Source of the DNA: a virus
IMG/VR virus record: IMGVR_UViG_3300030333_000412
Span: 1 to 28,015 of that record
Direction: 5' to 3' (one strand)
Length of the DNA: 28,015 nt
A program made the translations under genes and the position numbers. The notes under the pieces are model-generated. The model worked only from the letters and a program-made list of their open reading frames with translations. It had not been told where the DNA came from and did not search any database. Of the stretch, positions 6,792 to 11,184 are shown piece by piece; positions within the stretch are counted from its first letter, which is position 1, and the number at the start of each line of letters is the position of its first letter.

Positions 6792-6811
6792 ACAAATTAT
6801 TAATTATTATT

Positions 6812-6828
6812 ATATTATATTATGGCAA
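6812..6828 (+). promoter_or_regulatory. A/T-only leader shared with 9589-9605
   Basis: The 17 bases ATATTATATTATGGCAA, which include the ATG at 6822, are identical to 9589-9605 before the post-capsid gene. Both lie in longer runs of A and T only, with no purine-rich ribosome site. This fits Bacteroidota-type initiation, where an unstructured A/T leader rather than Shine-Dalgarno pairing selects the start. A promoter role is possible but not shown. Confidence 0.4.
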
Positions 6829-9540: not shown

Positions 9541-9570
9541 AAAAGACCGGGGCTTCGGCCTCGGCCTTTT
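9541..9570 (+). terminator. rho-independent terminator after the capsid gene
   Basis: Left arm AAAAGACCGGGGC (9541-9553), loop TTCG (9554-9557), right arm GCCTCGGCCTTTT (9558-9570). All 13 positions pair except one A-C mismatch (9546/9565); one pair is G-T. The loop is the extra-stable C(UUCG)G tetraloop, and the stem runs directly into TTTT and a T/A-rich stretch. It lies 11 bases after the capsid stop. Because genes follow on the same strand without a recognisable promoter, it probably reduces rather than abolishes read-through, separating abundant capsid message from the rest. Confidence 0.9.
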
Positions 9571-9588
9571 ATTTATTAATTTTATTAT

Positions 9589-9605
9589 ATATTATATTAT
9601 GGCAA
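9589..9605 (+). promoter_or_regulatory. A/T-only leader, second copy of the 6812 element
   Basis: ATATTATATTATGGCAA, identical to 6812-6828, with the start ATG at 9599. It follows the capsid terminator by 18 bases, so if a promoter restarts transcription here it must lie within this A/T tract. No Bacteroidota TAnnTTTG -7 box is evident, so I call it only a leader. Confidence 0.35.
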
Positions 9606-10396
9606 AAAAGAAAAAAACAGAAGAGACAGTTGTAAAAACTGCTCCGGTTGTAGAACAACCAAAAACAAAAGAAGATACTTGGGAGATAAAAGATAGAATG
9701 TATTATCTAAAAGACGGTAGAAAACCTTTATCAAGAAGCGTTAGATCAGCTAACTTATATTGGTTTGATAAAGATCAAGGATACGAAAGAGAAATAAAAT
9801 ATTGTGAAAATCAAACTACTCCATTTGTTGACGAAATGAAAGGAGATCAAAGATTATCTCATATAATATTTAGATCTGGATCTTTATATGTGCCTAAAGA
9901 AAAAACAATTTTACAAAAGTTTTTATCTTTGTATCACCCAGATAGAGATGTAATGTTTTACGAGGACAAACCAGTAGCAAGAGCTGAGAATCATTTAGAT
10001 TGGTTAGAATTTGAAATCGCGGCTATGAACGCAGCAAATAACTTAGATATTGACATGATGGAAGCTATTTTACGTGTAGAAATCGGTTCTAAGGTATCAG
10101 AGATGACTTCTAAGGAGATTAAAAGAGATTTACTACTATTTGCTAAGAAAAGCCCAAAGTTATTTTTAGAGTTAGTTACAGATGATAATATACAACTTAG
10201 AAATGTAGCTGTAAAAGCTTGCGAGGCTCATATCCTGTCACTCTCTCAAGACCAAAGAACGTTTACTTGGAAAAGTACTGGTAGAAAGTTAATGAACGTT
10301 CCTTTTGACGAAAATCCTTATTCTGCTTTAGCAGCTTGGTTTAAAACAGACGAAGGAGTTGAGGTTTACTCTCAAATTGAAAAAAGATTAAAATAA
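9599..10396 (+). CDS. conserved post-capsid protein, function unknown
   Basis: 265 residues. The first ~25 are Lys/Glu/Thr-rich (MAKKKKTEETVVKT), probably disordered. Then follows a globular part opening with WEIKDRMYYLKDGRKPLSRSVRS in pieces. Further segments are DKDQGYEREIKYCENQTTPF, IIFRSGSLYVPKEKTILQKFL and YHPDRDVMFYEDKP, and a helical C-terminal half ends with WFKTDEGVEVYSQIEKRLK. The LSxYHPDxDxxFYE segment recalls the beta-rich N-terminal part of head-completion or capsid-vertex proteins, but I cannot name a family. It lies between the capsid terminator and the hairpin at 10404-10445. Probable structural or head-completion role by position only. Confidence 0.6.
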   Translation: MAKKKKTEETVVKTAPVVEQPKTKEDTWEIKDRMYYLKDGRKPLSRSVRSANLYWFDKDQGYEREIKYCENQTTPFVDEMKGDQRLSHIIFRSGSLYVPKEKTILQKFLSLYHPDRDVMFYEDKPVARAENHLDWLEFEIAAMNAANNLDIDMMEAILRVEIGSKVSEMTSKEIKRDLLLFAKKSPKLFLELVTDDNIQLRNVAVKACEAHILSLSQDQRTFTWKSTGRKLMNVPFDENPYSALAAWFKTDEGVEVYSQIEKRLK

Positions 10397-10403
10397 TAAT
10401 CAC

Positions 10404-10445
10404 TTTGTAGATGCAGTCGCTCTACGGGGCGATTGCAAATACAAA
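10404..10445 (+). ncRNA. intergenic UACG-loop hairpin without U-tract
   Basis: An 11-base-pair stem pairs TGCAGTCGCTC (10412-10422) with GGGCGATTGCA (10427-10437), closing the loop TACG, a UNCG-type tetraloop closed by C-G. Outside it, after a symmetric GA/AA internal loop, TTTGTA (10404-10409) pairs with TACAAA (10440-10445). All positions of the inner stem pair, two as G-T. It starts 7 bases after the upstream stop and ends 13 bases before the next ATG. The downstream sequence is A-rich, not T-rich, so it is not a canonical terminator. GTAGA (10407-10411) can also pair with TCTAC (10421-10425), giving a competing fold. Likely an mRNA stability, processing or translation element; not a known riboswitch as far as I can tell. 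Confidence 0.65.
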
Positions 10446-10458
10446 ATAAAAATATAAA

Positions 10459-11184
10459 ATGGCGATAAGTATAGATACGGTATATCAAAGAGTTTTAGCA
10501 ATAGCTAATAAAGAACAGAGAGGATATGTAACGCCTCAAGAATTTAATTTGATGGCTAATCAAGCTCAAATGTCTATATTTGAATCTTATTTTTACGATA
10601 AAAATCAAAGACAAAGATTAGAGCCAATGACAAACCCAGAAACTGACGAAACAAATATATCTGAGTTAATAGATAGAAAATTATCTCCATTCAAGGAAAG
10701 TTTACCAGTTACAAGCGGGCACACGTTTCCAGCTACTACAACAGTTAGTAGTATTGCTTACGAAATATTTCAATACGGTAAGGTATTTTATAACGATAAA
10801 GTTTGTCGTAAGGTAACAATAAATGAAGCTGAAAGATTAAAGAGTTCGACTAGACACATGATTGATACTCAACCTATATATGTTGATAATAGAGTTACCG
10901 GTAGAGATATAGTTGTTTATGCTGGATCTACATCAGAAAAAACTTCAAACGTAACAGTAGAAACATTTAGAATACCTAAAACAGTTGAGTGGGCTTATGT
11001 TATAGTAAATGATAAAGCTTTATATAATAGTAACTTGACAATAGATTTTGAATTACATAAATCAGAAGAAGACACAATAGTGTTTAAAATATTAGAATTA
11101 GCTGGGATAATAATTAATAAGCCTGGACTAGTTCAAATAGCAGCAGGAAAAGAAACAACAGAACAAACAATTCAAAAACAATAA
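10459..11184 (+). CDS. neck/ring (head-tail connector) candidate
   Basis: 241 residues. The N-terminus is helical (MAISIDTVYQRVLAIANKEQ, then GYVTPQEFNLMANQAQMSIFESYFYD) and is followed by a beta-rich body. The opening VYQRVLAIANKEQRGYVTPQEFN resembles virion ring or tail-connector proteins I associate with Bacteroidota podoviruses, including crAss-like ones; this is recollection, not a search. The C-terminal helix (FKILELAGIIINKPGLVQIAAG) suggests oligomer contacts. It lies 3 bases before the next gene, forming a pair that would connect the portal to the tail nozzle. The start ATG is 13 bases downstream of the hairpin, which may affect its expression. Confidence 0.6.
   Translation: MAISIDTVYQRVLAIANKEQRGYVTPQEFNLMANQAQMSIFESYFYDKNQRQRLEPMTNPETDETNISELIDRKLSPFKESLPVTSGHTFPATTTVSSIAYEIFQYGKVFYNDKVCRKVTINEAERLKSSTRHMIDTQPIYVDNRVTGRDIVVYAGSTSEKTSNVTVETFRIPKTVEWAYVIVNDKALYNSNLTIDFELHKSEEDTIVFKILELAGIIINKPGLVQIAAGKETTEQTIQKQ

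Follow-up and report, generated by a model that had tools for sequence, protein, structure and literature searches.

Genomic setting

The window analyzed here is a 28-kb virus record (28,015 nucleotides) with its main genes on the + strand, in the order terminase, portal, 395-aa gene, capsid-like gene, 265-aa gene, neck gene, and tail genes; a 1867-aa protein in the tail region carries a crAss muzzle domain. A gene for a GroES-like co-chaperonin lies upstream of the terminase (1355-1945). The region on either side of the 265-aa stop codon contains the following features:

9547-9573, + strand: U-tract terminator-like hairpin after the capsid-like gene, with a UUCG loop; used as the internal control
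9574-9598, + strand: AT-rich promoter-like motif before the 265-aa gene (TATTAATTTTATTATATATTATATT-ATG)
9599-10396, + strand: 265-aa gene (phrog_34748, function unknown), with its stop codon at 10394-10396
10397-10435, + strand: competing fold, pairing the bases after the stop codon with the native loop and 3' arm
10404-10445, + strand: conserved U-less intercistronic hairpin, from folding and comparison with relatives
10446-10458, + strand: spacer of 13 nt between the hairpin and the neck-gene ATG, A-rich and unstructured
10459-11184, + strand: neck/virion structural gene downstream of the hairpin (phrog_14543)

The 265-aa protein has no sequence match in the PDB, and its AlphaFold model (pLDDT 81, pTM 0.52) has no match among solved structures at E <= 0.001. 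The predicted fold matches only uncharacterized phage proteins, those of phi14:2 and several crAss-like viruses among them. Named relatives are Flavobacterium phages of the genus Elemovirus, Cellulophaga phages phi38:1 and Calle_1 (Pervagoviridae), Cellulophaga phages phi18:3, phi19:3, and phi13:2, Maribacter phage Panino, and the spring-water genome MW202828; phi13:2 served as an outgroup in the crassvirus comparison of PMC10172136. The phages that carry the hairpin are marine and uncultured, and form a large group with kinship to the crAss-like phages. A literature search returned no transcriptome papers for these phages.

A stable hairpin without a U-tract

The hairpin consists of an outer stem of 6 pairs (UUUGUA 10404-10409 with UACAAA 10440-10445), a 2x2 internal loop (GA 10410-10411 opposite AA 10438-10439), and an inner stem of 11 pairs (UGCAGUCGCUC 10412-10422 with GGGCGAUUGCA 10427-10437) closed by a C(UACG)G loop, with the cUACGg loop at 10423-10426; an earlier sequence-only reading had described stems, loop, and internal loop exactly so. 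Its folding energy is -25 kcal/mol, compared with -6.4 +/- 2.0 in 200 shuffles (z -9.3), and no other 50-nt stretch on the + strand of the window is as stable; the sequence-only reading had called it the most ordered non-coding element present. The 3' flank, ATAAAAATATAAA, holds no U-tract, as had also been noted. Of the two components of an intrinsic (Rho-independent) terminator, the GC-rich hairpin is present and the U-tract directly after the stem is absent. Several features of an intercistronic protective hairpin are found: it is stable, lies between genes of the same orientation, sits near the upstream stop codon, and lacks a U-tract.

A search of Rfam 15 identified no family at its gathering score, and a relaxed search was also empty (best E 3.5, chance-like). 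Likewise, BLASTN against phage records, with 2 kb around the hairpin and with one further hairpin of the family, gave no match.

Conservation as an RNA

Homologous loci were collected through the neck protein (43 loci) and the 265-aa protein (80 loci), with 160 more from two further scans that brought in divergent 265-aa proteins. Within the window's lineage, a hairpin occupies this place at nearly all loci despite many changes in its sequence. In an alignment of 16 diverse sequences, 93% of cells are paired, falling to 33-54% when the partners are slid against each other, and 11 of the 16 pairs have changed on both sides. Conservation and compensatory change, the check that had been proposed for this element, are thus both found among its relatives. 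None of 500 shuffles reaches the same level of compensatory change, but since the shuffles ignore relatedness among the sequences, it is the counts rather than this figure that carry the argument for selection. RNAalifold, unaided, arrives at this inner stem too, and at the greater part of the outer one.

A further set of 69 distinct sequences was picked by the CTNCGG loop alone and not by pairing. Here, 614 of 621 inner-stem cells are paired, including 121 G-U and no A-C combinations, from which it follows that the + strand RNA is the conserved form. An antisense reading is excluded by the same counts and by the weaker fold of the - strand (-14.9 versus -24.1 on the + strand). Because pairing is kept in nearly every distinct sequence and both place and spacing are fixed, the hairpin is a real conserved RNA under selection.

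The hairpin belongs to the 265-aa gene

A 24-base DNA pattern, searched against IMG/VR, returned at least 80 loci, at least 76 of them new. Among the 76 new matches listed, 75 lie 3' of, and in the same orientation as, a 265-aa homologue; the record of the remaining one starts only 24 bases before the match, so that the upstream gene is cut off. Wherever the stop codon allows measurement, the listed matches lie 15-19 nt from it. Across the family, the hairpin itself follows the stop codon at a median distance of 6 nt (sd 2.3). With a covariance model, each record of 49-68 kb in the window's lineage yields one clear copy, and the model's strong matches in 84 sources are all at this slot. The exact pattern is absent from a collection of 84,980 bacterial and archaeal genomes.

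On the downstream side, the listed matches are followed either directly by the neck gene or by a gene of 50-54 aa and then the neck gene. The short gene (MEKKSKGLGDTIEKITKATGIKK..) is seen between hairpin and neck gene in loci L049, L055, L083, L132, and L146, among others. Because the hairpin keeps its fixed distance after the 265-aa stop codon even where this extra gene intervenes, it belongs to the upstream 265-aa gene. Its position rules out a role as a leader of the neck gene, and the earlier proposal of an element tied to the gene at 10459 is, on the same grounds, not supported. A stop-codon readthrough signal is ruled out by inspection: the window has TAATAA, and frame and spacing vary.

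The same slot carries a terminator in relatives

In all six cultured relatives examined (Elemovirus, phi38:1, Calle_1, Panino, phi18:3, and phi19:3), and also in MW202828, the 265-aa homologue is followed by a hairpin with a U-tract. Elemovirus, phi38:1, Calle_1, and MW202828 share with the window a GC-rich hairpin in the slot after the same gene, but there a box resembling the Bacteroidetes TANNTTTG element (PMC6847099) comes after the terminator, whereas the window form lacks both U-tract and box. In phi18:3 and phi19:3, small genes of opposite orientation occupy exactly this slot (L129 5024-6806 and L131 5117-7197). About 20 uncultured relatives have a GTGGCTATTTTTATTTA terminator with a conserved AT-rich tail and 51-65 nt to the next gene. 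In this alternative form (L057, L062, L065, L067, L071, L073, L119, and others), GTGGCTATTTTTATTTA precedes a strongly conserved GCTAACCTTCCRCTTTATTATGTAACTATAATATAGTAAAATA, a tail that can itself fold into an AT-rich hairpin. The window form, by comparison, has neither a U-tract nor space in which a promoter could lie: its hairpin ends 13 nt before the ATG, as does the family median, and the spacer holds no promoter-like motif and no room for one.

Across the 232 slots after the 265-aa gene, the raw table shows a U-tract together with a gap of at least 30 nt in 22 and with a shorter gap in 11; of the slots that lack a U-tract, 5 have a long gap and 194 do not. Among the five apparent exceptions, the U-tract lies just outside the tested stretch in L088 and L315, while L008, L345, and L351 appear to be missed start codons; the hand-sorted table, which was the input to the Fisher test, has 24, 11, 0, and 194, respectively. 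A U-tract in this slot thus goes with a gap of at least 30 nt up to the following gene.

The slot after the capsid-like gene in the same phages provides an internal control. A U-tract (at least 5 T in 8) is found in 233 of 258 capsid-gene slots versus 44 of 238 slots after the 265-aa gene, and the AT-rich promoter-like motif in 247 of 258 versus 2 of 232. The hairpin of the control slot (9547-9573 in the window) varies in sequence among relatives while its U-tract stays. Near-identical copies of the AT-rich motif, each ending in a start codon (TATTAATT..TTATTATATTATATT-ATG), occur in the window at 6798-6824 and 9574-9601, the former (6798-6821 without the start codon) directly before the 395-aa gene. 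On account of its position and conservation, we take the motif to be, probably, a late promoter specific to the window's lineage. A simple U-tract terminator, though present in the slot of the cultured relatives, does not fit the window's lineage.

A competing fold beside the stop codon

The bases that follow the stop codon have alternative partners in the hairpin's loop and 3' arm, through UAAUC 10397-10401 with GAUUG 10431-10435 and CUUUGUAGA 10403-10411 with UCUACGGGG 10421-10429. This competing fold has the lowest energy of all when the RNA stops at 10435 (-15.7, z -4.1); when it stops at 10437, the native inner stem wins (-18.4), and in the complete RNA the native hairpin dominates, with an equilibrium probability of the competing fold of about 7e-6. 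Separately, pairing between GATTA in the final codons and TAATC at the stop codon (10386-10401) could give a third small hairpin.

Complementarity of the leader to the loop and 3' arm exceeds that of shuffled leaders across the family (mean z -2.9, n = 121; -3.6 for UNCG forms) and is absent from the capsid-gene hairpins (z 0.0, n = 237). The difference from this control persists when the set is thinned to 49, 30, and 22 representatives (p = 4e-8, 3e-4, and 0.02) and, more weakly, when the stop codon and the last six leader bases are also held fixed (p = 3e-6, 0.009, and 0.06). Swapping leaders between members costs only about 2 kcal/mol, and GTAG leaders occur together with UUCG, UGCG, and UCCG loops, with which they pair poorly or not at all. 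Independent covariation for the competing fold is limited; a pair examined directly for covariation gave no significant result. The GTAGA/TCTAC pairing raised in the sequence-only reading is real, larger than described, and enriched across the family; the switch function suggested for it is conjectural. We regard the competing fold as a supported feature with a hypothetical role.

Discussion

The simplest reading of these comparisons would be that transcripts read through to the neck and tail genes and that the hairpin acts at the RNA level. We tentatively favor, at somewhat short of an even chance, a function in defining and protecting the 3' end of the 265-aa message within the late operon. 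Transcription from the promoter-like motif that precedes the 265-aa gene would yield a late polycistronic mRNA extending through the neck and tail genes; once its downstream part is cleaved off or decays, the hairpin would define and protect the 3' end of what remains, the 265-aa message. Message abundance on the two sides of the hairpin could thereby differ with neither a terminator nor a second promoter. With a ribosome on the stop codon, the leader would be covered and the native hairpin favored, so that translation could perhaps tune it. The neck and tail genes are probably reached by readthrough, because the promoter motif is missing downstream of the hairpin, although a phage polymerase might need no U-tract to terminate, or a promoter that escaped recognition may lie upstream.

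Protection of the 3' end is favored since the hairpin resembles published protective hairpins between operon genes. Those described in E. coli are stable, lie between genes of an operon, lack a U-tract, and adjoin and protect the upstream gene, which they are thought to shield from 3' decay (PMC5927463). The malE-malF and puf hairpins are likewise stable, U-less, and adjacent to the end of the upstream gene. The window form differs from all of these in lying in a phage late operon, in single copy, about 6 nt from the stop codon and with a competing fold; its protective effect is what we infer. Plain 3' protection leaves the conserved competing fold and the tight spacing to the stop codon unexplained.

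An alternative is a translation-coupled bistable switch, in which a ribosome at the 265-aa stop codon would cover the leader and yield the native hairpin, while otherwise the competing hairpin would form first during transcription; the two states would differ in termination, decay, or downstream translation. We consider this unlikely. That the competing fold is the minimum-energy structure of the RNA ending at 10435, that leader complementarity beats shuffles and is absent from the capsid-gene hairpins, and that this difference survives, weakened, both thinning and fixing of the stop codon and last six bases, all speak for it, as does the narrow spread of the spacing (median 6 nt, sd 2.3). Against this, the native fold dominates at equilibrium, the outer stem GUAG/CUAC and the CUAC loop account for part of the complementarity, GTAG leaders coexist with UUCG, UGCG, and UCCG loops, a leader swap costs little (~2 kcal/mol), and p is only 0.02-0.06 after strong thinning. 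Ribosome-controlled attenuators such as tnaC likewise place mutually exclusive folds beside a stop codon, but here the hairpin follows a full-length head-module gene rather than a leader peptide and has no terminator U-tract, and any regulation would be hypothetical. A partial (leaky) terminator or attenuator, reducing transcription of the neck and tail genes below that of the 265-aa gene, is also unlikely: the hairpin is strong and GC-rich with a UNCG loop, as in terminators, and its slot holds a U-tract terminator in the six cultured and ~20 uncultured relatives, yet the same phages that keep a U-tract in the capsid-gene slot have none here, and U-tracts in this slot accompany room for a new promoter.

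In phage T7, RNase III processes intergenic hairpins, and those sites share with the window an interrupted stem between phage genes. Were such an enzyme to cut the late mRNA downstream of the 265-aa gene and upstream of the neck gene, their messages would come apart as well, and paired arms of typically 16-19 nt, interrupted by an internal loop and located between late genes, are compatible with it. RNase III sites usually span roughly two turns, however, and the present hairpin is shorter, both than this and than the T7 sites; we find this reading rather improbable, and cleavage here is hypothetical. More improbable still is recognition by a phage or host protein, such as a structural protein regulating its own operon. 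The upper stem GTCGCYCTNCGGGGCGAY recurs in phages with neck proteins 35-45% identical to that of the window, but it changes in other sub-forms with pairing kept, and core identity among phages is only slightly higher than in the neighboring terminator hairpins (0.83 versus 0.78). A terminator relic without present function, which the terminators of the outgroups in this slot might suggest, is scarcely credible given that pairing, place, and spacing are maintained, pointing to selection.

The hairpin represents an uncatalogued RNA family in well over a hundred environmental phage sequences, and it marks an evolutionary exchange at one fixed place, with a terminator and promoter in relatives and a U-less hairpin here. 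It is a doubtful proposal that a translation-coupled switch has replaced the terminator and promoter of the relatives, with ribosomes setting the ratio of 265-aa to neck and tail message. The exchange itself allows a concrete test of whether protein ratios in a late operon can be set through RNA structure rather than promoters, to which the competing fold, if true, would add a translation-sensing step.
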